Both the position numbers and the translations under genes were made by a program. This document shows, one piece after another, positions 30,667 to 48,416 of a stretch of DNA of 50,900 nucleotides (position 1 is the first letter of the stretch; every line of letters starts with the position of its first letter). The stretch comes from a virus: positions 5,979 through 56,878 of IMG/VR virus record IMGVR_UViG_3300030104_001004; one strand, given 5' to 3'. The notes beneath the pieces were generated by a model. That model was given only the letters and a program-made list of their open reading frames with translations. It did not search any database and had not been told where the DNA came from.

Positions 30667-31134
30667 GTGGTAGATCCAGTAACTATAATTAGTGGTATAG
30701 CTCTTGCCAATAAAGCATTTAAAGAAGTTAAACAACTTCTAGAAAATGGTAGATCTGTTAATGATTGTGCAAAACAATTAACTGATTGGGCCACAGGATG
30801 TTCACAAGTACATGAAGAGAATAATAAACAGAAACTTATGGGTAGTAGTACATCAGCATCTGCTATGGAAAGACTTATAAGTGTACAGAAAATTCAAAAA
30901 CAGAGAGAAGAACTGAGAGAGTTTCTACAATTATATGGAACTCCGGGTAGTTGGAATTTATTTCTTCAGTATGAAAGAGAAGCAAGATTAGAATTAAAAA
31001 AAGCAAAAGAAGACATGGCAAAAAAACGTGCTAATAGGTTGAATAAAATGAAAAATATATTTGTAGTATTTTTAGCTTTTATGTTCTTTGCTTTATTAGC
31101 AGCAATAGGAGCACTTATTTATCTTAATATATAA
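30667..31134 (+). CDS. C-terminally membrane-anchored protein, 155 aa
   Basis: Starts with GTG at 30667, preceded by a G-rich AGAGGGGGCAAAG site. The body is helical (VDPVTIISGIALANKAFKEV, VQKIQKQREELREFLQLYGT, ELKKAKEDMAKKRANRLNKM) and residues about 128-155 form a strong transmembrane helix (IFVVFLAFMFFALLAAIGAL). Similar DPVTI proteins are common in marine podoviruses near lysis genes. A role in lysis, for example as a spanin-like or holin accessory, is possible but unproved. Confidence 0.75.
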   Translation: MVDPVTIISGIALANKAFKEVKQLLENGRSVNDCAKQLTDWATGCSQVHEENNKQKLMGSSTSASAMERLISVQKIQKQREELREFLQLYGTPGSWNLFLQYEREARLELKKAKEDMAKKRANRLNKMKNIFVVFLAFMFFALLAAIGALIYLNI

Positions 31135-31143
31135 GGAGTAACA

Positions 31144-31404
31144 ATGGTGGGTGAGATGATGTATGAAGAAGATAAAAAAGATATGATACCAGATAAATCT
31201 GTATATCAAACAAATAGAAGACGTATGGCTTGGTTAGTTATGGGAATGTTGTTTGCTATGACTGTATGTATTGTAGCTGATCCAGATCGTTATGGTAATA
31301 ACAATGTCATGGAGATGGCTTATCTAGCTTTGTCAGGTTTGATTGCAGCTTACTTTGGTGCTGCTGCTTATCAGGCAGGTAAGTTAGGACGAAATCCACG
31401 TTAA
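31144..31404 (+). CDS. Two-helix membrane protein, class II holin candidate, 86 aa
   Basis: Preceded by AAGGAGTAACA. Charged N-terminus (EEDKKDMIPDKSVYQTNRRR) then two transmembrane helices (AWLVMGMLFAMTVCIVAD at about 29-46 and MAYLALSGLIAAYFGAAAYQ at about 57-76) joined by a short loop, and a basic tail GKLGRNPR. Size, two helices and the position after the endolysin match class II holins. A different holin-type protein is at 32533-32940 on the other strand, so which one sets the lysis time is unclear. Confidence 0.7.
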   Translation: MVGEMMYEEDKKDMIPDKSVYQTNRRRMAWLVMGMLFAMTVCIVADPDRYGNNNVMEMAYLALSGLIAAYFGAAAYQAGKLGRNPR

Positions 31405-31462
31405 GGGGGTATAGCTGCTCATACAGAGCAATCTATGTGTTTGTGGTAGTTTAGTATACTAG
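31405..31462 (+). other. Structured non-coding RNA segment before the terminator
   Basis: No gene fits the stretch 31405-31566 between the convergent arms. This part starts with GGGGG (31405-31409), then a perfect 5-base stem TGCTC-ATACA-GAGCA (31416-31430) and the palindrome TAGTATACTA (31451-31460). Its start, GGGGTATAGCTGCTCATACA, looks like a diverged copy of GGGGTTAGATGGCTACTCAG in the following terminator. A tRNA was considered and rejected (no T-arm). The span 31508-31566 holds nothing I can identify. Confidence 0.4.
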
Positions 31463-31507
31463 AGGGGTTAGATGGCTACTCAGAGGCCAATACAGCCCCT
31501 TTTTTTT
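31463..31507 (+). terminator. Intrinsic terminator of the rightward arm
   Basis: AGGGG (31463-31467) pairs with CCCCT (31496-31500), enclosing an inner TGGC/GCCA stem (31473-31476 with 31486-31489), and is followed by eight Ts ending at 31507. It lies 59 bases after the last virion-arm gene and before the end of the oppositely transcribed terS, so it ends rightward transcription. It has no T tract on the other strand, so it does not clearly stop leftward transcripts. Confidence 0.78.
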
Positions 31508-31566
31508 CAGAATAGTGTAGTGCAATCTTCTTACATGTAGTAATTATAATTATATTACCATTTAAA

Positions 31567-32031
31567 TCATATACTTTCCATTTCTTCAGCATGTTCTTCA
31601 TCTTGCCCCTCAAATATATTATTAGCAAAGTCACACTTCTCTAATAAATTAATAACTTTTTCCTCTCCTAATGTATTAAGACAACCTACTATGGCTGTTT
31701 CTAATGTATCTTTATCTAAACCAGTATTAATATCACTACCAGCACCACGTATTCTAGATAATAATTCTAGAGCTTTGAGTGCGCTATTAGAGTGACCGTT
31801 GTTCTTTGCAAACTCATATTGTTTTTCTAATTCATTTATAACATCTACATCTGTTTCAAGTTGCTGTTCTAGTTCATGTACTCTATCAACAACTTCTTGA
31901 TTCTGCATAAGACGGTAGCCTTGATTAGCTGCTGATTCAGGAGCATAGCCAGCATTCTTTGCAGCCTCTGTGGCATTACGATGTAGTATGTATGACTGTG
32001 CAAACTTTTCTTGTTTTTCATTAAGAGCCAT
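31567..32031 (-). CDS. terS: Terminase small subunit
   Basis: 154 aa. The N-terminal MALNEKQEKFAQSYILHRNA TEAAKNAGYAPESAANQGYR is a textbook terminase-2 helix-turn-helix region that recognises the packaging site, followed by coiled coils (NQEVVDRVHELEQQLETDVD and INELEKQYEFAKNNGH) for ring assembly and an acidic tail. AGGAG seven bases upstream gives the start, and the ATG overlaps the previous stop as TAATG. It is unusual that it lies on the opposite strand and far from the large subunit at 280-1818, at the very end of the leftward operon. Confidence 0.88.
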   Translation of the reverse strand: MALNEKQEKFAQSYILHRNATEAAKNAGYAPESAANQGYRLMQNQEVVDRVHELEQQLETDVDVINELEKQYEFAKNNGHSNSALKALELLSRIRGAGSDINTGLDKDTLETAIVGCLNTLGEEKVINLLEKCDFANNIFEGQDEEHAEEMESI

Positions 32032-32372
32032 TATTTTTCTCCTACTGTCTCACGATCTATATCATCATGATCAAACTCAGCCCAATATAATTCAAGAGCT
32101 TCTCCATCTGATACAGCTTCAAACTGATGATACTCTCCCGGCCCTACTGTAGTCCACTCTCCTTCTTTAATAAATGTTTCATCTACAAGATCATAATTAT
32201 TTTTCCATACTCTAATAATTAATTCACCTTTAGTAACATAGAATCCATTCCACTTATACTTGTGTTTATGTTTACTACATTTACTACCTTCATTAAATTT
32301 TATATGATGAAATTCAAATACACCGTTCTTAAATATAGAACAAGTTTCACCCCAAACTTTTCCTGCCTTCAT
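32031..32372 (-). CDS. Cupin-fold small protein
   Basis: A single cupin beta-barrel of 113 aa: motif 1 has H35 and H37 in KCSKHKHKYKWNGFYVTKGE, but the usual glutamate position is replaced; motif 2 has PGEYHQF with H82. So a metal site of at least three histidines is plausible. Cupins act as dioxygenases, isomerases or sugar/metal binding proteins; no specific reaction can be read here. It is translationally coupled to terS (TAATG) and lies in the modification cassette that also contains sugar and methyl transferases, where a role in nucleotide-sugar chemistry is a guess. Confidence 0.78.
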   Translation of the reverse strand: MKAGKVWGETCSIFKNGVFEFHHIKFNEGSKCSKHKHKYKWNGFYVTKGELIIRVWKNNYDLVDETFIKEGEWTTVGPGEYHQFEAVSDGEALELYWAEFDHDDIDRETVGEK

Positions 32373-32497
32373 AATACTTTCTTTTCAATTATTTTTAGTG
32401 TTATATCTTTTCTTCGTTCAATAGAGTTATACAATTTTTCTATAGCTTCGTTATCATTGTTACCATGAACATGTACAACATAAGGCTTTTTATACAT
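32369..32497 (-). CDS. Tiny unknown protein, 42 aa (or 55 aa)
   Basis: ORF with MYKKPYVVHVHGNNDNEAIE KLYNSIERRKDITLKIIEKK before the stop. Its TGA overlaps the ATG of the cupin gene. A TTG at 32536 that overlaps the holin stop as TTGA would give 55 aa with coupled translation. Neither start has a strong ribosome site. It fills the only gap between the holin and cupin genes, which supports it being coding. Confidence 0.5.
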   Translation of the reverse strand: MYKKPYVVHVHGNNDNEAIEKLYNSIERRKDITLKIIEKKVL

Positions 32498-32532
32498 TTC
32501 AGCTTTAACTTCAATTAAATATTTTATTTTAT

Positions 32533-32940
32533 TCAATTAATTTTCATATTGTTTCTAGCTACACCCTTCCACTTTTCTGCTGTTCTCATACCACCAAGTC
32601 CTAGTAATGCAAGAACTAAACTTGTAAGCTCACCTGTTTCTAGTATAGGTAGTGTAACCATTGGATACCAAGTTAAAATAACCCATGATGCTATAGGTGC
32701 AAGTATAAACTGCCAACCAAGAGCAAATGCACAGATCCACATAATAGCAGGTCTAGCCCCTGAAACAAATATAGAGGGATGTTTAGCTTGTTCTATATTA
32801 GCTTGTGCTTGAGCAAGATCAAGACTAATCATTTGTTGTTTTAGTTCAGCATTTAATTTAGTCTTGAGATCTTTATCTTCTACAAACTTATCAAGAACTT
32901 TACCAGCTACACCTATAACACTGTCTGCTATTCCTAACAT
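32533..32940 (-). CDS. GTA-type three-TM holin
   Basis: 135 aa in the GTA_holin_3TM style: an N-terminal helix (SVIGVAGKVLDKFVEDKDLK), a conserved linker FVSGARPAIMWICAFALGW starting the first membrane helix, a second (FILAPIASWVILTWYPMV), then MVTLPILETGELTSLVLALL, GLGGMRTAEKWKGVAR. Typical of holins in alphaproteobacterial phages and gene transfer agents. It has AAGGAGTAACATA before the ATG. It is separate from the M15 endolysin and lies in the leftward arm near SET and glycosyltransferase genes. Confidence 0.85.
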   Translation of the reverse strand: MLGIADSVIGVAGKVLDKFVEDKDLKTKLNAELKQQMISLDLAQAQANIEQAKHPSIFVSGARPAIMWICAFALGWQFILAPIASWVILTWYPMVTLPILETGELTSLVLALLGLGGMRTAEKWKGVARNNMKIN

Positions 32941-32951
32941 TATGTTACTCC

Positions 32952-33272
32952 TTATACTTCATAGTCTAAAAGTATTTCTTCATTCTTTAATATTTTTCTA
33001 GATGTTAGTATATTATAAATTAGATAGTCATCCCAATCTTGTGATATAACTAAATAACAATTTGGATTATCTGAATGATTTATAAAACCACCTAGAGGTG
33101 TTCTTATATAACCTATAATCATAGGATATTTAATATGAGTAGAACCTAAATCTGTTTTAGATTTAATATTTTCTTTAGCAAAGATACCATGACCATGTAT
33201 AGGACTTTCTCTAATTTCTACATTACTGGGTAATGGATCATAATAAAATCTATTATATTTTAATACAGTCAA
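32952..33272 (-). CDS. SET-domain protein lysine methyltransferase-like protein
   Basis: 106 aa, almost only a SET domain. Signatures: the N-terminal HGHGIFAKENI (about 26-36), the catalytic core GGFINHSDNPNC (61-72; the NHS..PN motif that binds the methyl donor) and EEILLDYEV (98-106), with Y104 in the position of the catalytic tyrosine. The start is TTG at 33272 immediately after the previous stop, with AAGGTGGG upstream. SET proteins methylate lysines of proteins, including viral or host ones. Target unknown. Short for the family but complete in motifs. Confidence 0.85.
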   Translation of the reverse strand: MTVLKYNRFYYDPLPSNVEIRESPIHGHGIFAKENIKSKTDLGSTHIKYPMIIGYIRTPLGGFINHSDNPNCYLVISQDWDDYLIYNILTSRKILKNEEILLDYEV

Positions 33273-33980
33273 TTAATCCCACCTTTGTAATTCTGATTTA
33301 TAATCTTTTTTAGGAGCTGTCTTTAATGGTATTATTGTTGGTCTTGGTATTATTTTATATGAGTTTAAACGATACTTATCATTATTTTTATCATCAGCAT
33401 AAACGTAGATAGTTAGATACGGATAGTCTACTGATATTCTAGCAATAAATTGTAGCCATTCTTCTACAGGATAAAGAGATACGTGTACATTCTCACCATT
33501 AGGAAAATGTTTCATTGCAGGTAGACAACATATATTAAGAAATACTACGTTAGTAGAGTAGTTTAATATCTCTTTAATAACCCAAGCTAGATCTTGATAT
33601 GGTACATGTTCTAAAACATCTGTGTTTACTACAATATCATAAACTCCAGTTGGTAATTTATTATGTTCTTCTTCACCGGGATCATAAAGAGTAACATCTT
33701 TTATACCCCAAAACTCATGTATTGGTTTATCTAAGAAATCAGAGTCAGGAACAGTATGAAACTTATCTGTATAAGGATGTCCTTTACCACAACCATAATC
33801 TAATAAAGTTTCACAACCATGCTTCTCAATTATTTGTTTAATTGGGCCAGCAAATCTTACTAGACTTCTACCATTAAACATACCCTCATCAAGTGAGTGC
33901 ATCTGTTCATATTGTTTTAGTAAATCTTTGTATCTTTGAGATGGGTTATCTCTACTATATTGTTCTTTATATTCAATCAT
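33273..33980 (-). CDS. Class I SAM-dependent methyltransferase
   Basis: 235 aa. Motif I LLDYGCGKGHPY (59-70) is the SAM-binding glycine-rich loop; LYDPG (98-102) and VVNTDVLEHV (117-126) are the acidic-loop and motif IV-like segments of methyltransferase_11/23-type enzymes. The ATG at 33980 with AGGA upstream is preferred over a TTG at 33992. The small substrate (sugar, lipid, protein) cannot be told. It overlaps the end of the large fusion gene by 8 bases and precedes the SET gene, so it is co-expressed with a glycan cassette. Confidence 0.85.
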   Translation of the reverse strand: MIEYKEQYSRDNPSQRYKDLLKQYEQMHSLDEGMFNGRSLVRFAGPIKQIIEKHGCETLLDYGCGKGHPYTDKFHTVPDSDFLDKPIHEFWGIKDVTLYDPGEEEHNKLPTGVYDIVVNTDVLEHVPYQDLAWVIKEILNYSTNVVFLNICCLPAMKHFPNGENVHVSLYPVEEWLQFIARISVDYPYLTIYVYADDKNNDKYRLNSYKIIPRPTIIPLKTAPKKDYKSELQRWD

Positions 33981-36354
33981 AATATCCTGCAAACGGTGGA
34001 CGTTTCTCCTTACTCTTTTTAATATCCCATAAAGCAGAGATCATTGTATTTTTACCATGAAGTTCTAATACACCTTCAAGGCCGGGATCTTCAAATACTT
34101 TCTCACAGTCTTGAGCCATAGCTAAAAGCTCACCTGTAGTCCAGTATGTAGTATCTCCTACATTAACTTGTATGTATTTAGGTTTAGGTGTTTCACCACC
34201 CTCTATATCACCTGTAGTTTCTGTCTTCTCTTCTGCTGTTGGTTCTTCACGGCAACAGTCATAACCAAAGAGATGTATTTCTCTGAAGCCCATTGTGTGC
34301 ATCAAACCTATACCACGCATAGCCGCACAAGTACCACCTGTAATTAACGTAGCTCCTTGTGGTATACCTAACTCTTCGTTAAGCTGTACAGTTTGATTAA
34401 CTATCTGTGTGCCTCGTTCTTGTTCTTTTCTCATGAAGTCTGTAAAAGCATGCCAACCCCATATTTTACCATCACTATCTTTAATATGTTTAGTAACAGA
34501 TGGGTCTGTCATAGATGCAACAAAGAATAAAGTATCTTTATCTATATCTTTAAACAAATCTTTACGCACAATATTATGTGTACTTTTACCTTCTATTGAA
34601 CGAGGATCAAGAACAATACATCCCCAAGGTTTTATACCATGTTTTAATAAATTAGGATAAGCATGTTTAACAGTTAGTATTTTAGGTCTAATACCTTTCT
34701 CTAATTGTTTATGTATAAACTCTTTTAGTTCTGCATAATTTAAATATGGGCCAGCAGATACAACAATACCTATTTCTCTATGAGATGGATGTTTAGAAAT
34801 CCATTTATCATTACCTATAAGTTTTATATTTGTTTGTATATTACTTACAATATAATCTTTAGGTACACAGTCTCTAGGATGCACTACTATAGGTACACGT
34901 TTAACATCCTCTGGTATATCTTTTAAATCAGGATCATGAAGGAAGACAACTAAGTGTGTAGTACCACCACCAAGAACTCTATCGCTAGATGGTAGCACAT
35001 ACTTTCTTGTTGTAGAATTATCATCAAAGGTATGCCAACCATCCACATCTGGAACTTCATCTGCTTTTACTTTTTTTGTAGGCACAGATTTAAAGACATC
35101 ATTTACACCCTGATAAATAGCAGGGGGCATTTCTTCTGCTTCATCTTTTGTAAAGTAATGATCAGCAACAACAATAGGAATATTTTTTAAACATAGATAT
35201 TCATGGGCTACAGTATCGTAGCTATTACCACTACCAATGAGAGCAAAATCAATACTGTTATTTTCTTTACTATCAAGTACATCTTTTACATCACCTTTAA
35301 TTAATTTAAAAGTAAACTCTTTACCTCTTTCTTTTTTAACAAACTCTTTAAACTCTTCTAGTCTAGCTGTTACAGCAGCTAAAGTATTATGAGCTTTAGA
35401 ATTAAATTCTTCTTGATCTATCTCTGATGTAGCATCTTCAAATAAATCATAACCAATGTAGTGTGCTTTATCTGACTTTTCAAATATAGCAAGAGCCATT
35501 TCTATAGCCCTACCACCATTCCATGTGCCTGTTTCTAAAACAGTCTGTGGTTTATAGTGTCTAATAATATCTGCAAGTTGTTTGTATCTTCCCGGTAATA
35601 TATCTGGTGATGTTTCTTTATCAGATAGAGGAACTATTCTATTACCTTTAGCATCTCGTAGTTTTCTAGATGCTGGATCACGTAGATCTACAAATAAATT
35701 ATTTAGTACCCCAATACTATTTTCTGTAAATAGTTTGTAGTTTAATCCTCGTGCTTGATACAAAGGTAAGATAGAACCTAGTATAAAATTAAATCCCCAC
35801 TCTCTATAATTTGTAAACCTGTCTGTAATATATGCTCCCTTTATATCAGCAAGAAGTTCTACTACAGGTTGGCTCTGTAAATTAAAAGCAGCAAAATGAT
35901 TTCTATGTTCAACTAAAGCTAGAGACAATGCATTATTATCGTCACTAAAAATAGTCTTTAAACTATTTAATCTTACATCTCTTACTGTGCAACAGTTTAC
36001 ATCTAACCAAAATAACCAAGAATCATTATCATTAAATGCTTGTTCACTTATAGAAAATAATTTAGGTGCTTCTGATATTACATCAATAATAGTATTATAT
36101 TCTACACTACCACCCTCTGTACCATCATGAGTTTTATTACGCTCCATAAACTCAGAGAAGCCATCTATATTATTTAAATTATGATAATAAATATTATCTT
36201 TATTAGGTAAAGAATAATTAGATATATCTAAATTATAATAATAACAATGAAACTCTATATTAGGTTGCCAGCTTGAGGAAAATTGTTCTATTAATTTTGA
36301 TCCATTAATTTTTAAAAGTGTTTCATCAAAACACGTAACTACTTTATATTTCAT
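33973..36354 (-). CDS. Glycosyltransferase-like / methyltransferase / DUF115 (MptE-like) fusion
   Basis: 793 aa with three parts. Residues 1-230 look like a glycosyltransferase-type domain (KVVTCFDETLLKINGSKLIE; DSWLFWLDVNCCTVRDVRLN, acidic residues where a metal-binding motif would lie). Residues about 250-420 are a SAM methyltransferase: TVLETGTWNGGRAIE (271-285) and IGYDLFE (300-306), with IKGDV at 352-356. Residues about 505-790 are DUF115: IGIVVSAGPYLNY (528-540) and ITGGTCAAMRGIGLMHTMGF REIHLFGYDCC (671-701). DUF115 proteins include MptE-like and flagellin-glycosylation (Maf-type) proteins. The fusion suggests a one-chain sugar-attachment and capping enzyme; the first domain is the least certain. 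Confidence 0.78.
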   Translation of the reverse strand: MKYKVVTCFDETLLKINGSKLIEQFSSSWQPNIEFHCYYYNLDISNYSLPNKDNIYYHNLNNIDGFSEFMERNKTHDGTEGGSVEYNTIIDVISEAPKLFSISEQAFNDNDSWLFWLDVNCCTVRDVRLNSLKTIFSDDNNALSLALVEHRNHFAAFNLQSQPVVELLADIKGAYITDRFTNYREWGFNFILGSILPLYQARGLNYKLFTENSIGVLNNLFVDLRDPASRKLRDAKGNRIVPLSDKETSPDILPGRYKQLADIIRHYKPQTVLETGTWNGGRAIEMALAIFEKSDKAHYIGYDLFEDATSEIDQEEFNSKAHNTLAAVTARLEEFKEFVKKERGKEFTFKLIKGDVKDVLDSKENNSIDFALIGSGNSYDTVAHEYLCLKNIPIVVADHYFTKDEAEEMPPAIYQGVNDVFKSVPTKKVKADEVPDVDGWHTFDDNSTTRKYVLPSSDRVLGGGTTHLVVFLHDPDLKDIPEDVKRVPIVVHPRDCVPKDYIVSNIQTNIKLIGNDKWISKHPSHREIGIVVSAGPYLNYAELKEFIHKQLEKGIRPKILTVKHAYPNLLKHGIKPWGCIVLDPRSIEGKSTHNIVRKDLFKDIDKDTLFFVASMTDPSVTKHIKDSDGKIWGWHAFTDFMRKEQERGTQIVNQTVQLNEELGIPQGATLITGGTCAAMRGIGLMHTMGFREIHLFGYDCCREEPTAEEKTETTGDIEGGETPKPKYIQVNVGDTTYWTTGELLAMAQDCEKVFEDPGLEGVLELHGKNTMISALWDIKKSKEKRPPFAGYYD

Positions 36355-37114
36355 GAGGTTTTATTTGTCCTGTTCCTGCAAGATAAGTATAATCATAATT
36401 CCACTCTGCTGCATACTGACCATCAATTTTTCTATTAGACTTCCAATCTTTAAACCAAGGACCACCTGTAGTAAAGTGTACATTCTTAGCTTCAATTTCA
36501 GCAGGTGAGTGATTGTCCAACCAATTCCATTCTTCGTGTATAGAACCAATATCAGCTTCTTTATCTGGCAACCAACTAAAAGCATGAAGCCATTGTCCTG
36601 TTTGAGAATTAACAACTTGTGGTGTTAGTCTTTTATTATAAGGATGACTACAATTCCAAAGAATAAAACTAGACCAGTTTTTTCTACGATAGTTTTGTTG
36701 TACTCTACCATCCATTTTAATACCATCACCCGGTTCATACTTATGTTTTACACAATATAAAGGAAAGAATTTATTATTATATTCTTCAAATAATGTATTA
36801 AAATCTATACGTGGATACATATCACAATCCATATACAATGCCCAACCTTCATGCATCTGCATAGCTGGTACAAGAAAACGTGTGAAACTAAACTCACTAG
36901 AAAAAGGTTTACCATCTATTTGATCAATCATTTGACCATCAACAACGTCATGTTTTCTAGTGTATAAACCATTAAGTTCTAAACGATCTTTTCTTATAGG
37001 TACTATGCGAATATGTTCTATTGCAGTGCGATCTAATGTAAATTTTAAAACATCATAGGCTACCTGTTCTTTAGGATCATAGCCTATGTAAATTGTATTT
37101 GGTCCTTTTTTCAT
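36344..37114 (-). CDS. Glycosyltransferase, GT8-like
   Basis: 256 aa with N-terminal IYIGYDPKEQVAYDVLKFTL, SSEFSFTRFLVPAM and the metal-binding DxD in WALYMDCDMYPRID (DCD at 96-98), then FTTGGPWFKDW near the end. These match a bacterial glycosyltransferase family with a GT-A fold that transfers a nucleotide sugar to a surface glycan or protein. The downstream fusion gene overlaps it by 11 bases. A hairpin at 37131-37156 separates it from hsp20. Likely partner of the fusion protein in glycosylation. Confidence 0.85.
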   Translation of the reverse strand: MKKGPNTIYIGYDPKEQVAYDVLKFTLDRTAIEHIRIVPIRKDRLELNGLYTRKHDVVDGQMIDQIDGKPFSSEFSFTRFLVPAMQMHEGWALYMDCDMYPRIDFNTLFEEYNNKFFPLYCVKHKYEPGDGIKMDGRVQQNYRRKNWSSFILWNCSHPYNKRLTPQVVNSQTGQWLHAFSWLPDKEADIGSIHEEWNWLDNHSPAEIEAKNVHFTTGGPWFKDWKSNRKIDGQYAAEWNYDYTYLAGTGQIKPHEI

Positions 37115-37130
37115 GTCTTCTCCAGAAAAG

Positions 37131-37156
37131 AGAGAGGTAGTTTTACCTACCCCTCT
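37131..37156 (-). other. Hairpin between hsp20 and glycosyltransferase genes
   Basis: AGAGAGGTAG (37131-37140) and CTACCCCTCT (37147-37156) form a 10-pair stem with one mismatch and a 6-base loop. On the minus-strand RNA it lies just after the hsp20 stop, followed by only a short C/T run, so it is a weak terminator or an attenuator/processing site. It would make hsp20 mRNA more abundant than the glycosyltransferase messages. Confidence 0.5.
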
Positions 37157-37162
37157 ATAGTT

Positions 37163-37585
37163 CTATTGTATTTCTATTTGTTTAGGTTTCTCTTCTTCAG
37201 GAACTACAATATTAATATGTAGTGTTAATAGTCCATCCTCAAAAGATACATCACTTATAACAGCATTTTGTAGTAGTGAGAACTTTTTTGTAAATGGTCT
37301 TTTAGCAATACCATTATGTATATATTTTTTATCTACAGTAGTTCCTACATCATTTATCTTTTTATTATTAGAGATAGTAACAGTATTTTTTTCTTGTATT
37401 ACAGCAATGTCTTCTTTAGAAAAACCAGCAAGTGCTAATGTAATCTCATAGGAAGTATTAGAGTGTTTAATTATATCATAAGGTGGGTACTGATTTGTCT
37501 GCTCCTTCAGACTGTATAATAAACTATCAAATCCTATTGAGTTTTCTAAAAAGTTTTTTACCATTGAATCTGTATATGGAAACAT
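37163..37585 (-). CDS. Small heat-shock protein (Hsp20/IbpA-like)
   Basis: 140 aa alpha-crystallin domain protein. YPPYDIIKHSNTSYEITLAL AGFSKEDIAV opens the domain, YIHNGIAKRPFTKKFSL is the IbpA-type dimer-loop region, and FEDGLLTLHINIVVPEEEKP KQIEI closes it with the IxI-like end. It holds unfolding proteins; in a phage it could protect assembly of virion parts along with the GroES-like protein at 6183. The ATG has GGAG upstream, and the promoter at 37642-37670 is a perfect consensus, so high expression is expected. Confidence 0.92.
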   Translation of the reverse strand: MFPYTDSMVKNFLENSIGFDSLLYSLKEQTNQYPPYDIIKHSNTSYEITLALAGFSKEDIAVIQEKNTVTISNNKKINDVGTTVDKKYIHNGIAKRPFTKKFSLLQNAVISDVSFEDGLLTLHINIVVPEEEKPKQIEIQ

Positions 37586-37641
37586 AATTAACTCCTATAT
37601 TAAGCTTAGTTAATGTGACCTATTATTAGCATCACTACTAT

Positions 37642-37670
37642 ATTATACAGTATAAATTACTATCTGTCAA
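37642..37670 (-). promoter_or_regulatory. Perfect-consensus sigma70 promoter for hsp20
   Basis: On the minus strand TTGACA (37670-37665), a 17-base spacer and TATAAT (37647-37642), both full consensus, precede the hsp20 ATG by 57 bases. The -35 overlaps the stop codon of the previous gene. This is the strongest promoter seen in the window and may drive the whole operon to terS. Confidence 0.85.
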
Positions 37671-37876
37671 GAACTTTTTTTATTTACCATTAATTTAAAA
37701 TCTAACTCTGATACTATTGCACTTGCTGTGTTAGTAAATAACCCCGGTACAATTGCATGTATAATAATAAATACTGTAGCAAAAAATAAATAGGGTAAAC
37801 AACTAAGAACAAATCTAAAGTGCTGCCAGTATGTCATGTTGACATCTTGTAAATGTTTTTTACTATTATCAAACAT
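37667..37876 (-). CDS. DUF6356-like membrane protein, 69 aa
   Basis: The ATG 37876 with GGGA upstream gives MFDNSKKHLQDVNMTYWQHF, and residues about 20-50 form a membrane helix region (VLSCLPYLFFATVFIIIHAI VPGLF). The HL-x-x-V-x-MTYWQHF start and the HAIVPGLF end match DUF6356, small proteins known from alphaproteobacteria such as SAR11 and rhizobia. This supports an alphaproteobacterial host or ancestry. A longer upstream frame overlaps the zinc protein and is unlikely. Confidence 0.78.
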   Translation of the reverse strand: MFDNSKKHLQDVNMTYWQHFRFVLSCLPYLFFATVFIIIHAIVPGLFTNTASAIVSELDFKLMVNKKSS

Positions 37877-38033
37877 TATTTTCCCAACCCTCTTTAGAAG
37901 AATAAAACATAGCAAAGCTATCACATTTTGGACAACTAAAATTTGTTGAGACTACATACGCTTCATAGTCTTCTTCTTCAGCATCGTGGTTGCCACCACA
38001 AATCATCTCAGTATTACAGTGTAAACATTTCAT
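37869..38033 (-). CDS. Small zinc-binding protein, 54 aa
   Basis: Two CxxC pairs: MKCLHCNTEMICGG near the start and FSCPKCDSFAMFYSS near the end, a likely zinc ribbon. HDAEEEDYEAYVVSTN links them. It begins directly after the NrdB stop and overlaps the next gene by 8 bases. Small two-knuckle proteins of this type are frequent in marine phages, function unknown. Confidence 0.75.
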   Translation of the reverse strand: MKCLHCNTEMICGGNHDAEEEDYEAYVVSTNFSCPKCDSFAMFYSSKEGWENNV

Positions 38034-39017
38034 TTAATTAGCCCAAACATCTGACCAGTCTCCTTGCAACGCACCTTTAGCATAGTCTGTAGCTCTGTTC
38101 TCAAAGAAGTTTGTATGAGTAGGAGCATTGATCATAGTCTCAACCCAAGGTAGTGGATTAGTTTTAACTTTGTAAATACCTTTCATACCCATAGATATTA
38201 ATCTACGATCTGCTATATAACGAATATACGTTTTAACTTCTTCAGGTGTGAGTCCATCCACTGCCCCCATCTTAAACGCCAGATCGACAAATTTATCCTC
38301 AAGATCAACCATCTTACTTGCCGTTTTATATATTTCTGATTTTGTTTTGTCATTCCAAACCTCTCTATTTTCTTCTATATAAGTTCTAAAAAGTTTGATC
38401 ATACCTTCTGCATGTTGTGTCTCATCTACAATAGACCATGTAACTATCTGTCCCATACCTTTCATCTTACCATGTCTAGGAAAGTTTAGTAACATGATAA
38501 AAGAAGAGAACAATGCTAGTCCCTCTGTGAAAGCAGAGATAGCTGCAATCTGTAGAGGTATTGGTACGTTTTGTTTTGATACATGATCTTTAAAGAACTC
38601 ATGCTTATCTCTCATAGCTTCATATTCATTGAACTCATTGTATGTGCTGTCTGGCATACCAAGAGATTCAATAAGATGTGAATATGCTGCTACGTGTAAT
38701 GCTTCTCTTGAACAGAAAGAAGACAGCATCATACGTACCTCTGGTTGTGGAAAATGTGGTAGATAATTTTCTACATAACCACCAGATACATCTATATCTG
38801 ATTGTGTAAAGAATCTAAATATATTAGTAAGAAAGTATTTTTCTTCTGTACTTAGTTTGTTTTTCCAATCTTTAACATCCTCAAGCATTGGTACTTCTGT
38901 ATGTAACCAATGTGATTGCTCATGCTTGAGCCATGCATCATAAGCCCAAGGATAATTAAACGGTTTAAAGTAATCTCTTTGATCTTGTAATTTTAATTTA
39001 TTCATGTTCGCCCCCAT
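38034..39017 (-). CDS. nrdB: Ribonucleotide reductase class I, small (beta) subunit NrdB
   Basis: Makes the tyrosyl radical that starts dNTP formation. Diiron ligands are visible with the E. coli spacing: D74, E105 and H108 in SREALHVAAYSH, E165 in AFTEGLAL, E199 and H202 in DETQHAEG, and the radical tyrosine Y112. So it appears to be a standard class Ia-like protein, not the tyrosine-less kind. 327 aa is normal. The start is either 39017 (MGANM) or ATG 39005; AGGA lies about 7 bases before the former, G-rich bases before the latter. Separated from nrdA by small genes and an HNH endonuclease. Confidence 0.95.
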   Translation of the reverse strand: MGANMNKLKLQDQRDYFKPFNYPWAYDAWLKHEQSHWLHTEVPMLEDVKDWKNKLSTEEKYFLTNIFRFFTQSDIDVSGGYVENYLPHFPQPEVRMMLSSFCSREALHVAAYSHLIESLGMPDSTYNEFNEYEAMRDKHEFFKDHVSKQNVPIPLQIAAISAFTEGLALFSSFIMLLNFPRHGKMKGMGQIVTWSIVDETQHAEGMIKLFRTYIEENREVWNDKTKSEIYKTASKMVDLEDKFVDLAFKMGAVDGLTPEEVKTYIRYIADRRLISMGMKGIYKVKTNPLPWVETMINAPTHTNFFENRATDYAKGALQGDWSDVWAN

Positions 39018-39315
39018 TTCCTCTTCCTAAACCACCTACAGATGTAGGAAATAATTTACCAAAAACATTTGGTTTTGTTTTAGCTAACTCAAAAGTAGTA
39101 GCTGTTACAAATAAACCTAACAATAAAAGTATATGTGCAATAGCAGATATACCAAATACAAAATATGATCCTAGATAAATACTAAATATAATACACCACA
39201 TCCATGCTAGTAATTGCATAATCATATGACGCACTACCATACTAGGTATATTACTTAGTGGGTTATATCTATGATCCATTATAGATAACCAACAACTACC
39301 TACAAACTTAATCAC
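38998..39315 (-). CDS. Small membrane protein, 105 aa
   Basis: GTG at 39315 overlaps the previous stop, and an internal ATG at 39279 (MDHRYNPLSNIPSMVVRHMI) is an alternative start. Two to three membrane helices follow (LLAWMWCIIFSIYLGSYFVF, AIAHILLLLGLFVTATTFEL), with a glycine-rich tail. DHRYNPL..IP..VVRH appears to be a conserved start in marine phages. No function known. It lies between two nrd genes, and its end overlaps nrdB by 20 bases. Confidence 0.7.
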   Translation of the reverse strand: MIKFVGSCWLSIMDHRYNPLSNIPSMVVRHMIMQLLAWMWCIIFSIYLGSYFVFGISAIAHILLLLGLFVTATTFELAKTKPNVFGKLFPTSVGGLGRGNGGEHE

Positions 39316-39572
39316 GTTTCAACACCTCTCTTGTTGTAGTCTTTAGGTAAGCAAAGAAACTGACTTACTTGTGCTCCCTCTATTTCTTTGTAAGAATTTC
39401 TAGCAAATTCAAGTAACTCATTAATATTATTAGTTACATATTCATAACACTCTCCTTGTTTTTCAAATACTAATTCCTTATTATCTTTATGACTAACAAC
39501 AAGAACATTACCTCTGTCATAGTCTTGTAAATTAGGAAAGAACATTACAATTATTATTACTAATTTACTCAT
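39312..39572 (-). CDS. Small unknown protein with hydrophobic start, 86 aa
   Basis: The first 13 residues (MSKLVIIIVMFFP) are hydrophobic and might be a short signal or membrane anchor. The rest is acidic and includes KQGECYEYVTNNINELLEFA and QVSQFLCLPKDYN. The ATG overlaps the end of the preceding zinc protein gene. No family is recognised. Confidence 0.65.
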   Translation of the reverse strand: MSKLVIIIVMFFPNLQDYDRGNVLVVSHKDNKELVFEKQGECYEYVTNNINELLEFARNSYKEIEGAQVSQFLCLPKDYNKRGVET

Positions 39573-39717
39573 CTTTACTTTTCCTTTCTAACATAGAATA
39601 ACATTCATAGCAAAGTTTTAATCCTTTCCTATCCCATGTAAATTCATACTGATCTCCTGTTACCCAACCTAGTTTACATATGTAACATACATTTTTAAAT
39701 TCTAAACTATTTACCAT
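39565..39717 (-). CDS. Zinc-ribbon-like small protein, 50 aa
   Basis: MVNSLEFKNVCYICKLGWVT contains CYIC, and LKLCYECYSMLERKSK contains CYEC, giving two CxxC pairs with about 27 residues between them, a likely zinc ribbon. The gene start overlaps the HNH endonuclease end and its TAA overlaps the next ATG. Small size and coupling support it; function unknown. Confidence 0.7.
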   Translation of the reverse strand: MVNSLEFKNVCYICKLGWVTGDQYEFTWDRKGLKLCYECYSMLERKSKDE

Positions 39718-40264
39718 GATTAGGGTGAAAATTATAATTTATATTAGCTATTCTTCTAGCTTCTACTGCTTCTTCTAGAGAATCATAAGATCCTAAATGG
39801 ATGTCCTTACTATTAATCCTAATACGTGCTCTATATTTATTTCTCTCTTCATACCATGACACTCCAGTATATCCAGTTTTACTATTTTTATTAAGTTTTC
39901 TATTTTTTTGATTTTCAAAACCAGATACTTCTCTAAGATTTATTATTCTATTATCAGTTGCATCATGATTAATGTGATCTATTTGATCTTTAGGCCAACA
40001 ACCATAGTAATGTAGCCAAATTATACGATGTGCGTAATAGCTTTTATCAAAAATTGAACCTACTTTTCTTGAAATTCTTACATGTTTTGAGCTATAGTCT
40101 TTATATTTAGTAATAAATGCTTTCTTACCAGCATATGTAGTGTTCCATCTACGTGCGGAACGTTCACTTTTAAAATATTTTAGAGGTCTTTCTTTCCAAA
40201 AAAGATCTCCAGTATCAGGATTATAATCTAATAACTCTCTAACTATTTCAGCAGTAAGTTCCAT
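39707..40264 (-). CDS. HNH endonuclease with AP2 domain, putative homing endonuclease
   Basis: 185 aa from ATG 40264, with AGGAG six bases before it; a longer frame starts inside nrdA. N-terminal HNH: AHRIIWLHYYGCWPKD with DQIDHINHDATDNRIINLRE (93-112). C-terminal AP2: GYTGVSWYEERNKYRARIRI, then HLGSYDSLEEAVEARRIAN (131-174). HNH-AP2 enzymes are usually free-standing mobile endonucleases that cut DNA at conserved genes. It sits directly behind nrdA and separates the nrd genes, a common target region for such elements in phages. Confidence 0.88.
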   Translation of the reverse strand: MELTAEIVRELLDYNPDTGDLFWKERPLKYFKSERSARRWNTTYAGKKAFITKYKDYSSKHVRISRKVGSIFDKSYYAHRIIWLHYYGCWPKDQIDHINHDATDNRIINLREVSGFENQKNRKLNKNSKTGYTGVSWYEERNKYRARIRINSKDIHLGSYDSLEEAVEARRIANINYNFHPNHGK

Positions 40265-40274
40265 AGTAATCTCC

Positions 40275-42065
40275 TTATCCTTCACAGGCAAGACACTCAT
40301 CTCCAGATGCTAGTGCTTCCATGTCTAACTCATTAATAATCTGTCGCTCAATCTTACGACTAACTTTGTCAGCCTTACCAATCTTTTCTGAACGACAATA
40401 GTACATAGTCTTCAGTCCTTTCTTCCATGCCATGTAGTGTATAGCATGTAGGTATTTAATCTCAGCATCAGGTCTAAAGAATACATTAAGAGATTGTGAT
40501 TGGTCAATGTATTGTTGTCTATCTGCTGCATGTTCTATAACCCATCGTTGATCTATCTCCATAGCAGTCTTAAATACTTCTTTCTCTTCAGTGGTAAAAG
40601 ATCTTAGATGTTGTACAGAACCATCGTTAGCTATGATACTAGACCAGATACGTTCATAGTTTAGCTTACTATCTTCCTCACACTTAGTCTTAATAATTTT
40701 ATCTAAGAACTTGTTTTTATTTAAGAAAGATCCACTAAGAGTATCTTGTCTATAGGCATTAGCTCTCCAAGGTTCTATTGATGGAGAAGTATTACCCATG
40801 ATAATAGAGCTAGATGCATTAGGTGCAATAGCCATTACATGACTACATCTTAGTCCTGTTCCTACAGCATCAGGAGCTTCACCTCGCAATAAAGCTAAAC
40901 TTCTATTAGCATAGTCTAAACCTTCTCTAATATGTTTAAACATTCTAATGTTATGAGATTTAGCTAACGCACAATCAAAGGGTATGTTTTTACTTTGTAA
41001 ATATGCATGGAATCCAAGTGCTCCAACTCCAACTGATCTCTCTCGCTTCGCACTATAACGAGCACGATGAATAGTATCAGGAGCGTTGTCAATAAAACTT
41101 TGTAAAACATTATCTAACATTTCTAATGTATCTGATAGAAAATCTTTGTCTTTAGACCACTCATCAAAGTACTCTAAGTTTACAGAAGACAAACAACATA
41201 CAGCAGTTCTTTCTTCTGATGTAGGTAGAATAATTTCAGAACATAAATTAGATTGATTTATTTTAAAACCTTTTTGTTTTAACCATGATGGCATTTCATT
41301 ATTAGACTTATCAATAAAATGTATATAAGGTTCTCCTGTTTGCATACGCATTTCTAATATACGTTGCCACAGTTCTTTAGCAGAAACAATATCTCTTACT
41401 TCACTACTGTGTGGATCAACTAGATCCCAACTATCATCAGCAAGTGGATTAACCATACAGTGTTCAAGAACACTCATAAACTTATCTGATATATTAATAC
41501 CATGATGCATATTGAGACAGCGAAAGTTTTGATCTCCTGTTGGTTTACGCATCTCAAGAAACATAAGCACATCTGGATGTGATATGTCTAGATATGCGGC
41601 ATAGCTACCTCTACGAGTTCTCCCTTGTCTGTATGCCAAGCTTGATGCATCATACATTTTGAGGTGAGGCATAACCCCTGTAGACTTATCATCAGATGAA
41701 CGAATACCAAAGCCAACACCAACACCACCACCCAACATTGAAAGCCAGTTTGTTTCACTTAAATTCTCCACTAATCCTTCAGAACTATCGTCAATATAAT
41801 TAAGATAACAAGAAATAGGAAGCCCACGTTTAGATCGTCCATACGATAAAATTGGTGTTGAATACGAGAGCCAATGTTTTGAAGCGTACTCATATAATCT
41901 TTGAGCATGTTCTTTATTAGAACCAAAACAGCTAGATACATGTGCAAACCTTTCTTGTGGTGAAATTTCATGATCCATCATGTAAGCTTCTTTAAGACGA
42001 GTGATCCCTAACTCATCAAAAAGATTATCTCTCTCAGGAGAGATTGTAATATCATCTTTAATCAT
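40275..42065 (-). CDS. nrdA: Ribonucleotide reductase class I, large (alpha) subunit NrdA
   Basis: Reduces ribonucleotides to deoxyribonucleotides. Visible catalytic parts: C86 in LPISCYLNY, N273-C275-E277 in SNLCSEI, a second redox cysteine in TAVCCLSS (290/291), the KTMYYCRSEK radical-transfer tyrosines near the end and a C-terminal DECLACEG cysteine pair for reduction by glutaredoxin-like partners. At 596 aa it is shorter than the 760-aa E. coli protein because the N-terminal ATP cone is absent, so dATP feedback of the usual kind is probably missing. ATG has an AGGGG site. nrdB is 1.3 kb downstream. Confidence 0.95.
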   Translation of the reverse strand: MIKDDITISPERDNLFDELGITRLKEAYMMDHEISPQERFAHVSSCFGSNKEHAQRLYEYASKHWLSYSTPILSYGRSKRGLPISCYLNYIDDSSEGLVENLSETNWLSMLGGGVGVGFGIRSSDDKSTGVMPHLKMYDASSLAYRQGRTRRGSYAAYLDISHPDVLMFLEMRKPTGDQNFRCLNMHHGINISDKFMSVLEHCMVNPLADDSWDLVDPHSSEVRDIVSAKELWQRILEMRMQTGEPYIHFIDKSNNEMPSWLKQKGFKINQSNLCSEIILPTSEERTAVCCLSSVNLEYFDEWSKDKDFLSDTLEMLDNVLQSFIDNAPDTIHRARYSAKRERSVGVGALGFHAYLQSKNIPFDCALAKSHNIRMFKHIREGLDYANRSLALLRGEAPDAVGTGLRCSHVMAIAPNASSSIIMGNTSPSIEPWRANAYRQDTLSGSFLNKNKFLDKIIKTKCEEDSKLNYERIWSSIIANDGSVQHLRSFTTEEKEVFKTAMEIDQRWVIEHAADRQQYIDQSQSLNVFFRPDAEIKYLHAIHYMAWKKGLKTMYYCRSEKIGKADKVSRKIERQIINELDMEALASGDECLACEG

Positions 42066-42071
42066 TTGCCC

Positions 42072-42368
42072 CTACCATAATACTTTCTTTTCTTTGTAAT
42101 ATAAATCTAAAATCATTTCTGCATAGTGTATTACTTTCTCTATATCTTTTCTACCCTCTCCTTTTGTACGATGTCTTGTTACATACTTTACAATATTACC
42201 TTCACAAAAACTTAAATTATTTTTTTCTATATATTCAACAGGTTGTATAACACAATTTTTATAATGCTTACCATCTACTTGTTTATCTAATGCTGATTCT
42301 TTCAAGTCTTTTTCCTCTCTTAATTTTCTAACTATATACTGATCTCTTGATTCATTTTTAATATTCAT
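42072..42368 (-). CDS. DUF3310-like phage protein, 98 aa
   Basis: The segment DGKHYKNCVIQPVEYIEKNN LSFCEGNIVKYVTRHRTKGE is characteristic of DUF3310 (SaV-like), a small family in phage nucleotide-metabolism regions; its precise role is not known. It includes a helix ending GRKDIEKVIHYAEMILDLYY. It lies immediately upstream of nrdA in the leftward operon, in keeping with a role near nucleotide supply. Confidence 0.82.
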   Translation of the reverse strand: MNIKNESRDQYIVRKLREEKDLKESALDKQVDGKHYKNCVIQPVEYIEKNNLSFCEGNIVKYVTRHRTKGEGRKDIEKVIHYAEMILDLYYKEKKVLW

Positions 42369-42378
42369 CTAATTCTTT

Positions 42379-42702
42379 CTATAAAAAAGAGTTTAACTTT
42401 TTTCTTATATCTGAATTATCTTTTACAGTCACAGCTTTAATTGCAAAAGTTCTTATTGTATTAGGATCAACACCTGCTAGTTCACAGGTATATGTGAAGT
42501 TCTCACAGGTAACACCAATAGAAGCAAAGACCCAAGCATTAGCTTGATCTCTCAGCAAAGATGTTTCTACATTTTCATTATCTACTTTAGGTTTAGATAA
42601 GTCAAGTAGTGCTCTTAGAATAATTGCTAAGTTTAAACTTCTATCAGGATTCTTTTCTGTTAAATCGTATAACGATTCGTTTTCTTCTAAATCATTTTCC
42701 AT
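42379..42702 (-). CDS. Unknown phage protein, 107 aa
   Basis: Acidic N-terminus (MENDLEENESLYDLTEKNPD), a middle (RDQANAWVFASIGVTCENFT YTCELAGVDPNTIRTFAIKA) with the look of a conserved marine phage helical domain, and a charged end. No DNA-binding motif is certain. The ATG overlaps the end of the GIY-YIG gene. I do not recognise a named family. Confidence 0.75.
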   Translation of the reverse strand: MENDLEENESLYDLTEKNPDRSLNLAIILRALLDLSKPKVDNENVETSLLRDQANAWVFASIGVTCENFTYTCELAGVDPNTIRTFAIKAVTVKDNSDIRKKLNSFL

Positions 42703-43087
42703 TTGGTGGTTCTTGTACTGGCCTATAAAATTTACCTCCTACATAATTATTGTAGAAGGCTGGCTCATCTGTTCCTTCTAATGTTGAAGTCAACACATGA
42801 TTCATTACTTGATAGTAACACTCATAATATTTTAAACTTCTTTTATTTTTACACTCACAAATAATTTCAAACTTAAATGCACGTTTACCTAATTTCTTTA
42901 TATCTTCATTAAGATATTTACTAGAGCCTGTATAAATTCTCCAGTTAGACTCTACCTTTTTTTTATTACGAGTTACGTAATATTGTTTACAGCCTATATA
43001 AGACTTATTAGTTTTCTTATTAGTTATTTGATATACAAAACCAAAGTGAACATGTGGTTCTGGTTTTTTATTAAACTTCCAATGCAT
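42692..43087 (-). CDS. GIY-YIG-type endonuclease
   Basis: 131 aa. GFVYQITNKKTNKSYIGCKQ (residues 16-35) holds the GIY-like GFVY and the YIG motif; WRIYTGSSKYLNEDIKKLGK has the conserved helix with K, and KYYECYY (86-92) carries a glutamate where the catalytic Glu lies. Free-standing GIY-YIG enzymes in phages are usually mobile or repair nucleases. Its 5' end overlaps the exonuclease gene by 17 bases and its 3' end the next gene, suggesting insertion into a packed operon. Confidence 0.8.
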   Translation of the reverse strand: MHWKFNKKPEPHVHFGFVYQITNKKTNKSYIGCKQYYVTRNKKKVESNWRIYTGSSKYLNEDIKKLGKRAFKFEIICECKNKRSLKYYECYYQVMNHVLTSTLEGTDEPAFYNNYVGGKFYRPVQEPPNGK

Positions 43088-43937
43088 ATACTTCTTCTAC
43101 ATCTGGTTCTCTCACAACCTGTGTTAAAAATTTATTACCCTTTGCATATTTAAATACACGTAGTCCTTTACCTTGATTAGAATCTGCCCAACATGTATGC
43201 TTATAATTACAATAGACACAACCAACAGCCAAGCTACGATTACCAGACTTGCCATCAGGCATATCAGTATAACACTTATCAGGCAAGCTATCTTTACCAA
43301 CAATGTTTTTAAGATGTTTGACCCTTGCTTCTGCATTAATCATATCCATCTGATGTAGTTTAGATAAACATATCTCTCCAGTAGATTTATTTATTGCAAG
43401 AAATGCAGCAGTATCTATACCATTTGCTTGAGCGTAAGCAGATATTTGAGCAACATATCCAAAAGGATCGTCTTCCACTAGATTATTTTTTCTAAACTTT
43501 TCAAATCCAAAACCACTGGCTGACTTACAGTCAACAAGAACACCATCAATAATAGAGTCTTGATGTCCAGCTACACCATCAACATGTACTTCTTTCTGTT
43601 GATCTTTAACATCATGTCCTGCAATAGTAGAACATAAAAGTAAAAGTTCTTCTAGAATATAACCATATAAAAACTTTATTCTAGTAGATGGTTTAAGTTG
43701 TTCTTCTTCAAGAGGACTATTAACATCTAACCAAATCTTTCTATCTGGTTTACCTATTGCAGAAAGTCTTAAACCTTTTCTATCTTTAGGAACTTCATAT
43801 AGAAAATCTTTTATATGAACCTTCAGCATTTCACCAAAGGTATCTATATGTTTATCTACTTCTTCTTCATCCATATCTATAGGATCAAGACTAAATAAAT
43901 TATATATATCTTCTACAAGAGTATCTACAGTTTTCAT
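43071..43937 (-). CDS. PD-(D/E)XK exonuclease (Cas4/RecB-like)
   Basis: 288 aa. Nuclease core: EELLLL (E97 region), GHQDSIIDGVLVDCKSASGF (124-143), providing D127, D136 and K138, then AQISAYAQANG as the conserved Q-Y motif. The C-terminal GCVYCNYKHTCW cysteines may form an iron-sulfur or zinc knuckle as in Cas4-type proteins. It probably degrades DNA ends during replication and host DNA recycling, like T7 gp6 functionally. There is no clear ribosome site before the ATG; a 9-pair hairpin lies 10 bases upstream (43947-43981). Confidence 0.87.
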   Translation of the reverse strand: MKTVDTLVEDIYNLFSLDPIDMDEEEVDKHIDTFGEMLKVHIKDFLYEVPKDRKGLRLSAIGKPDRKIWLDVNSPLEEEQLKPSTRIKFLYGYILEELLLLCSTIAGHDVKDQQKEVHVDGVAGHQDSIIDGVLVDCKSASGFGFEKFRKNNLVEDDPFGYVAQISAYAQANGIDTAAFLAINKSTGEICLSKLHQMDMINAEARVKHLKNIVGKDSLPDKCYTDMPDGKSGNRSLAVGCVYCNYKHTCWADSNQGKGLRVFKYAKGNKFLTQVVREPDVEEVYALEV

Positions 43938-43946
43938 AATAAATAT

Positions 43947-43981
43947 GGGGGAGTAATGCAGAGAGGAAACACTACTCCCCC
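43947..43981 (-). promoter_or_regulatory. Strong hairpin directly before the exonuclease start
   Basis: GGGGGAGTA (43947-43955) is perfectly repeated inverted as TACTCCCCC (43973-43981), with 17 bases between. It is the strongest G-C stem in the region. On the leftward transcript it ends nine bases before the exonuclease ATG (43937) and starts nine bases after the SSB stop. It has no U-run, so attenuation, RNA processing, or translational control is more likely than termination. Confidence 0.6.
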
Positions 43982-43990
43982 ACTCCTTAG

Positions 43991-44449: not shown

Positions 44450-44515
44450 GATCTTTATTTTCTCCGTTTAAATTTCACTGGACTATTCCAGCCTTGATTG
44501 TCTAGTAACTTTTAG

Positions 44516-44544
44516 ATAGTAACATAGTATTATTTGATTGTCAA
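44516..44544 (-). promoter_or_regulatory. Sigma70-like promoter for ssb and downstream genes
   Basis: On the minus strand TTGACA (44544-44539), a 17-base spacer and TACTAT (44521-44516). The -35 is full consensus and the -10 is 4 of 6. It lies between polA and ssb, letting ssb and the following operon be expressed apart from the polymerase gene. Confidence 0.7.
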
Positions 44545-44549
44545 GCACT

Positions 44550-48299: not shown

Positions 48300-48414
48300 A
48301 CTTTACCCCTAATACTCTAAGTAGTCCTTCTCTATTAATAATCTCTAATTCTGCATCCTTCTTTGTAGGAAAAGATTCAGGTAATATTTTACTATTTAAT
48401 ATTAATTTCCACAT
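48274..48414 (-). CDS. Tiny unknown protein, 46 aa
   Basis: MWKLILNSKILPESFPTKKD AELEIINREGLLRVLGVKYG followed by YRIKKI. The YGYRIKKI end looks like a conserved tail of small phage proteins. It overlaps the primase-helicase start by 26 bases in another frame. There is no strong ribosome site. The preceding gene ends three bases before its ATG. Confidence 0.6.
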   Translation of the reverse strand: MWKLILNSKILPESFPTKKDAELEIINREGLLRVLGVKYGYRIKKI

Positions 48415-48416
48415 AT

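Follow-up and report, generated by a model that had tools for sequence, protein, structure and literature searches.

Organization of the hsp20 Locus

The DNA under study (50,900 nucleotides of a marine phage, hereafter the window) corresponds to bases 5979–56878 of a 56,878-base virus record. On its minus strand, we identified a gene for a 140-residue protein with an alpha-crystallin domain and a C-terminal IEI sequence of the IXI type, a motif described in PMC10474464. The gene is preceded by a promoter and a leader and followed by an intrinsic terminator (Table 1). The open reading frame matched the Pfam HSP20 family (PF00011; 51.8 bits, E = 9.1e-14, family cut-off 20.8) and PHROG 432, Hsp20 (E = 1.7e-37). 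By these sequence matches, the product is a member of the Hsp20/alpha-crystallin family, with predicted chaperone activity and predicted oligomer formation.

Table 1. Features of the hsp20 unit and the GroES-like gene, in window coordinates.
Feature	Position	Strand	Description
Conserved AAAAGTTC	37671–37678	−	Immediately 5' of the −35 box; from an alignment of close copies
−35 box, TTGACA	37665–37670	−	TTGACA in 25 of 27 group loci, TTGACG in 2
−10 box, TATAAT	37642–37647	−	Spacer of 17; 27 of 27 group loci
Hairpin 1	37615–37635	−	GTGAT-G(bulge)-CT-loop-AG-GTCAC; covariation and covariance model match
Hairpin 2	37587–37614	−	AUUAACU-AAG-CU-loop-AG-G-AGUUAAU; encloses the Shine-Dalgarno sequence; predicted fold and R1 match
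Shine-Dalgarno, AGGAG	37592–37596	−	Inside hairpin 2
hsp20	37163–37585	−	Encodes 140 aa with an alpha-crystallin domain and an IEI motif (IXI type) near the C-terminus; PF00011 and PHROG 432
Intrinsic terminator	37131–37156	−	10-bp stem, then CTTTTCTG; 3' of hsp20
GroES-like gene	6171–6611	+	Structural arm, outside the cassette; Pfam Cpn10; seen in 14 phage records

A hairpin with a T-rich tail was found 3' of hsp20 in 25 of 27 units, the sequences being quite different between units. Since promoter, leader, gene and terminator are all present, the locus constitutes a separate transcription unit. The leader that separates promoter and gene, and the terminator (37156–37131), are absent from an earlier note on this DNA. 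The gene 3' of hsp20 (window 36344–37114, minus strand; PNT.YIGYDP...) also lies 3' of hsp20 in two distant relatives (L126 and L127), indicating that the cassette keeps its place.

Pfam searches located ribonucleotide reductase, DNA polymerase A and a primase-helicase in the same arm as hsp20. A search for the T7-type polymerase (PF00940) gave no match, but the controls gave no match either. The portal protein of the window is 37–42% identical in amino acid sequence to those of the Pelagibacter phages HTVC023P and HTVC027P and the Roseobacter phages CRP-901/902, and these phages also resemble the window in carrying GroES in the structural arm. They differ in hsp20: no HSP20 match was obtained in any of the four records searched (HTVC023P, HTVC027P, CRP-902 and 023Pt_psg01). 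Among 20 of the 80 portal relatives, HSP20 was present in the five longest (47–59 kb) and absent in the other 15, which are fragments of 11–20 kb. We also considered a prophage or moron cassette serving lysogens and rejected it, as no phage integrase was found in the record, which may be incomplete (controls positive in 14 of 14).

Several neighboring genes were recorded in passing. A 106-aa protein (window 32952–33272, minus strand; GHGIFA ... NHSDNPNC ... LDYE), with PHROG matches that carry no function, resembles a small SET-domain protein. A 793-aa protein (33973–36354, minus strand) combines a methyltransferase-like part with an MptE-like (PF01973) part, and its gene adjoins that of a further methyltransferase-like protein; surface or virion glycan modification is a possible role. 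Similar, non-identical gene copies (MNRDIMFSV...) occur at window 50021–50887 (minus strand) and at L002 3–302 (minus strand), one per record end, and by their sequences represent a duplication near the record ends.

A GroES-Like Gene in the Structural Arm

The earlier note had pointed out that the phage carries two chaperone genes, one in each arm, and this holds: the structural arm has the Cpn10 match (38.5 bits), between its portal and major head genes, and the PF00011 match lies in the arm with the replication genes. The GroES-like protein has 146 residues with an N-terminal extension, and its gene is near portal and capsid genes in relatives as well. GroEL was not found in the record. The proposal that Hsp20 and GroES serve one folding-help programme had to be given up. 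GroES stands among the head genes, belongs to the core of HTVC023P-type genomes (PMC9599517) and was present in all four hsp20-less relatives searched; the two genes are thus independent.

The hsp20 Promoter

The −35 box begins 85 nt before the hsp20 ATG. Positions 37670–37642 hold the only TTGACA-N15–19-TATAAT arrangement of the window, and the exact sequence AAAAGTTCTTGACA occurs in the window at this one place. Within 31001–50900, it was the sole site with 12 of 12 consensus positions, the next best having 10, which bears out the earlier description of a perfect promoter. The score alone is not decisive: promoter-like sites in 31001–50900 were not above shuffled sequence (85 versus a mean of 99.8), and shuffled windows contained a mean of 0.31 such sites, with at least one in 27 of 100.

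A chance promoter was instead ruled out by conservation across relatives. Both boxes and the 17-nt spacing were identical in all 16 close copies (window included). TATAAT and the spacing of 17 were found in 27 of 27 group loci (window not counted), several of which are near copies of one another, over 19 different spacers. These 27 loci comprise 15 found with the Hsp20 protein and 12 found via the portal plus the HSP20 family or protein alignment. The 15 were drawn from 21 Hsp20-protein loci, after exclusion of L017 and L019, in which the upstream DNA is absent, and of L021–L024. The latter four are 37% relatives that lack this promoter, yet by eye have a ROSE-like leader. One scan selected for the promoter, and its boxes were left out of the conservation evidence. 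Outside the window's group, a perfect promoter preceded 6 of 67 phage hsp20 genes. Because the boxes are kept over 19 different spacers in every group locus, we conclude from the alignments that the hsp20 promoter is under selection and, with TTGACA-17-TATAAT kept across relatives, is of the sigma-70 type.

The Leader of the Window hsp20

Between promoter and gene, we identified two hairpins. Hairpin 1 starts 6 nt 3' of the −10 box in 27 of 27 units (the window and 26 loci), placing it at or adjoining the predicted transcription start. Across the units, it follows the pattern GTGATGC(C/T)...(G/A)G(G/A)TCAC with a bulged G. Hairpin 2 of the window reads CUAAGCU...AGGAG, with a closing stem of seven bases. 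The window and its closest relatives have UAAGCU instead of U(U/C)GCU; C-G and U-A pairs and a G persist in the enlarged internal loop.

We compared this leader with the ROSE family of RNA thermometers, which is marked by a 5' leader that folds into two to four hairpins upstream of a small heat-shock gene, a conserved hairpin 1 with compensatory changes, and U(U/C)GCU paired to the Shine-Dalgarno sequence with a bulged G. The window has two hairpins by predicted fold upstream of a PF00011 gene, and its hairpin 1 shows covariation and a covariance model match. The U(U/C)GCU pairing is absent from the window and present in L014–L016 and in the 13 leaders of the R1 alignment described below. No Rfam ROSE model matched the window even at E = 10. 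Since the family is defined by the motif, absent from the window, and by a thermal response, here predicted, we regard the leader from its sequence as ROSE-derived or ROSE-like, not as a ROSE member.

Homologous Leaders in Other Phages

The leader is more conserved than the protein: hairpin 1 is nearly identical in relatives whose Hsp20 is 36% identical. Compensatory changes in hairpin 1 include an A-T in place of the outer G-C pair (L129) and, beside the loop, a C-G in place of T-A. In the 36%-identity relatives, hairpin 2 reads CUUGCU-AUA-AGGAG, which is the ROSE motif with its bulged G, and in L014–L016 it reads CUUUGCU...AGGAGG. With lax limits, Rfam ROSE_3 matched all five of the distant relatives L125–L129 end to end (E = 8.4e-5 to 0.0068; 30.1–37.7 bits). 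ROSE_3 also matched L394 (phage Melnitz-3; E = 0.0028), L140 (0.0037) and L393 (0.62) among 20 sources, and L362 (SAR116; 0.54) among 8 sources. All ROSE_3 scores were below the gathering cut-off of 43 bits. We also considered, and dropped, the idea that the hsp20 coding sequence had been exchanged while the leader stayed in place, as a single clade with the other podovirus Hsp20s was not rejected (AU p 0.53); the first protein tree had placed the window Hsp20 clade weakly (82/81) beside a cyanophage clade.

We then built a covariance model, R1, from 13 leaders of distant relatives, leaving out the window's group. With filters off, R1 scored the leader of the window at 31.3 bits (E = 8.6e-6), against an E of 0.62 for the next best place; no other match in the whole record reached E ≤ 0.001. 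It also matched 12 of 12 loci of the window's group and L312. Among 58 further sources, 31 matched at E ≤ 1 (14 at ≤ 0.01), every match just upstream of hsp20; E. coli ibpA was not among the matches in those 58 sources. As controls, 148,669 bases of four hsp20-less relatives gave a best E of 0.098, and 15 loci with a similar promoter and no hsp20 gave one match at 0.52, with two positive controls at about 1e-19.

A protein search gave 80 loci, the best seven of which (L130–L136) are in the window's group. The other 73 were read, and a simple ROSE pattern fitted 47 of them. For the scan and the covariation analysis, 57 of the 73 were kept, the other 16 having an ambiguous start codon or a short upstream part; 47 of the 57 entered the R1 search of further sources. 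A rule-based scan of 67 phage hsp20 leaders found a hairpin in 64, in some of which "hairpin 1" is the Shine-Dalgarno hairpin itself (for example L139, L143, L149, L151, L152 and L196), and hairpin plus motif in 55. In 4000 random window stretches, the corresponding values were 1.8% and 0. Among the phages, 82 of 86 leaders could be anchored, and their 46 distinct arm pairs showed 80.9% standard pairs, a figure that is not blind, as the anchoring rule was changed after a weak first outcome in the wrong register (60.4% versus 52.2%). Under the same rule, shuffled arms gave a mean of 54.1% (maximum 64.3% of 5000) and slid arms at most 50%; the shuffles ignore kinship, and the margin over them is not a probability. 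The bacterial leaders considered below gave 72.9% paired versus 48.7% shuffled (maximum 61.2%).

Ten named phages, chosen from 506 records with a match, were also checked. The leader was present in nine: P-SSM4, S-SM2, Melnitz-3, Syn1, P-SSM2, Ettore (a Pseudomonas phage, motif UUGCG), Phosso (a Sinorhizobium phage), P-TIM40 and S-RIM8. Vibrio phage PWH3a-P1 had no such leader at its hsp20. Stem sequences differ in the ROSE-like leaders of other phage groups (L021–L024, L137–L209), and in T4-like phages hairpin 1 often has a UUCG loop.

Bacterial Counterparts and Known Systems

The nearest bacterial hsp20 genes found were those of SAR324, SAR86 and SAR116 (64 loci, L328–L391). Their leaders have hairpin 1, often a middle hairpin (by eye), and UCGCU or UUGCU before AAGGAG. 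R1 matched 26 of the 64 at E ≤ 1 (14 at ≤ 0.01, mostly SAR116). The SAR116 hairpin 1, GTGATGCCATAATGGGTCAC, is one loop base apart from that of the phage relatives, GTGATGCCAATAATGGGTCAC, and SAR116 leaders carry a Shine-Dalgarno hairpin with UCGCU; the often additional middle hairpin sets the bacterial leaders apart. Upstream of bacterial hsp20, a TTGAAA/TTGTAA −35 motif occurred in 51 of 61 loci (shuffled mean 18.7, maximum 28) and CTTGAAA, a mark of sigma-32 promoters, in 24 of 61 (shuffled mean 1.7, maximum 6). A perfect sigma-70 pattern preceded one of 61. Since the leaders are alike but heat-shock-like −35 motifs mark the bacterial loci and consensus boxes those of the phage group, the latter, by sequence comparison, shares with bacteria the translational part and not the heat-shock transcription signal.

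The nearest experimental parallel is provided by the Pseudomonas ibpA leaders (ROSE_3, RF02523), which likewise comprise two 5'-leader hairpins on a small heat-shock gene, the first stable and the second containing the Shine-Dalgarno sequence. With these two-hairpin ROSE-like leaders, a shift from 25 to 42 °C brought a 3.3- to 8.3-fold induction, and melting was confined to the second hairpin (Krajewski et al. 2013, PMC3669281). Their U(U/C)GCU with a bulged G also occurs in the phage relatives. The present leader differs in being phage-borne and in standing behind a sigma-70 consensus promoter, where a sigma-32 promoter was reported for Pseudomonas; the window subgroup differs from ROSE_3 in its UAAGCU, its closing stem and a score below the Rfam cut-off.

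The phage RNA thermometers covered in PMC11182007 are very few (lambda cIII, SPbeta blyA and a fourU element before a sigma-70 gene in a gut phage). They belong to other classes and other genes; the paper names no ROSE element among them, none of that class on a chaperone gene, and assigns none of them control of Hsp20. Cyanophages such as S-ShM2 also encode a small heat-shock protein, and the reports concerned (PMC3827213, PMC5028025, PMC8546028) are, in the parts considered, protein work; in a term search, the main text of PMC3827213 lacked the words promoter, thermometer, untranslated, upstream and temperature. The T4-like cyanophages P-SSM4, S-SM2, Syn1, P-TIM40 and S-RIM8 have ROSE-like leaders too. 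In searches of the open-access literature, mostly at the level of titles and the start of abstracts, we recognized no report of a ROSE element in a phage. ROSE elements as a kind are known; what appears to be new is their occurrence in a phage, the exchange of promoter and the altered core.

Folding Energies

Thermodynamics failed as a proof of a thermometer, the energies not being diagnostic. The predicted folding energies of the leaders were no better than those of shuffles (z −0.66 to −1.90). In openness, the Shine-Dalgarno sequence of the window had rank 8 among 57 gene starts, and an equal closure was reached by 313 of 1000 shuffles. The calculated opening of this sequence from 25 to 42 °C was 18-fold for the window leader, which is not special, as values up to 117-fold were calculated elsewhere in the window; for E. 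coli ibpA, the same calculation gave 1.4-fold, so that it lacks calibration.

Proposed Mechanism and Alternatives

We consider it likely that the locus is a self-contained cassette in which a consensus promoter, a ROSE-homologous leader that closes the Shine-Dalgarno sequence, heat-opened translation and a terminator act together. The host RNA polymerase with its housekeeping sigma factor would transcribe hsp20 steadily. The message would begin at or near hairpin 1 and run into hairpin 2, which would hide the Shine-Dalgarno sequence and, at low temperature, hold ribosomes off. Warming would open hairpin 2 and allow translation, possibly aided by titration of Hsp20 by aggregates, and the intrinsic terminator would end the unit. 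This arrangement suggests a message made all the time and translated under heat or protein-folding stress alone, to the presumed benefit of the phage; it is probably a stress-gated chaperone cassette on a constitutive promoter.

The strong promoter could also belong to an ordinary, constitutively expressed chaperone gene whose leader serves only to stabilize the message at its 5' end. Messenger RNA can be protected by a stable hairpin at its extreme 5' terminus, and the energies indicate no unusual closure of the Shine-Dalgarno sequence. This reading leaves unexplained the ROSE motif in the second hairpin of the relatives and the homology to small heat-shock protein leaders, and we judge it unlikely. 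Less probable still, and in our estimate improbable, is that the hairpin acts at the DNA level, as an operator to which a repressor binds in the manner of HrcA/CIRCE, with the Shine-Dalgarno hairpin incidental. The GTGAT/ATCAC inverted repeat does lie at the start site, where repressors bind. However, the inner pairs require an asymmetric bulged G, which is RNA-like and unlike a symmetric DNA site, pairing is maintained even though the arms differ widely in sequence from phage to phage, the same leader occurs behind quite different promoters, and it matches an RNA thermometer family.

A more serious contender, which we regard as possible without favoring it, is that the leader, under the control of Hsp20, senses aggregation more than it senses temperature. 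Hsp20 would bind its own 5' leader and block translation until misfolded proteins titrate it away. E. coli IbpA represses its own leader via Arg93, and binding to the 5' UTR needs Arg93, an aromatic residue at 34 and positive charge at 97 and 98 (PMC10474464). At the positions equivalent to IbpA 93, 34, 97 and 98, the window Hsp20 has R, Y, K and K, and it may bind its leader likewise. Across 87 aligned phage Hsp20 proteins, the Arg93 position is R in 82, K in 4 and S in 1, with Y or F at 34 in all 87. The S belongs to PWH3a-P1, the sole named phage without the leader, a single exception that yields no statistic. The leader-binding residues are common to proteobacterial IbpA proteins and may mark ancestry alone, most phage Hsp20 proteins from outside the window's group lack a basic residue at position 98, and L157, L185 and L188, all with the leader, have Lys at the Arg93 position, a substitution reported as inactive in E. 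coli IbpA. The sensor is also compatible with the thermometer reading, which we continue to prefer.

Under the thermometer reading, the perfect promoter reported in the earlier note stands, while the high output it implied does not: the leader folds the Shine-Dalgarno sequence into a hairpin related to ROSE thermometers, and the protein output is therefore probably gated after transcription. Of the purposes proposed there, heat stress is favored by the thermometer-like leader, and nothing was found in support of a need for folding large virion proteins. A flat Hsp20 level after infection at normal temperature would, taken alone, be misleading.

Implications

We tentatively extend this proposal, at well below even confidence, to phage hsp20 genes as a class: they may come equipped with a stress sensor in the form of a compact ROSE-type leader acted on by the phage Hsp20, through which the phage would read temperature and aggregation independently of the host heat-shock sigma factor. 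In the podovirus group, the sensor would stand behind a constitutive promoter, with the message ready. The phage Hsp20 could additionally bind the host hsp20 message and silence it, the host leader having almost the same hairpin 1.

That bacteria combine this kind of translational gate with a heat-shock-type promoter, and the phage group with a constitutive one, would reveal which control layer the phage kept. If the proposal is true, RNA thermometers would belong to the usual makeup of phage chaperone genes and would not be oddities confined to a handful of phages, as the two elements in 55 of 67 phage hsp20 leaders, against none of the 4000 random stretches, suggest. It would also open a way to ask under what conditions, and to what end, phages bring in chaperones of their own, and how the temperature of the ocean bears on infection.
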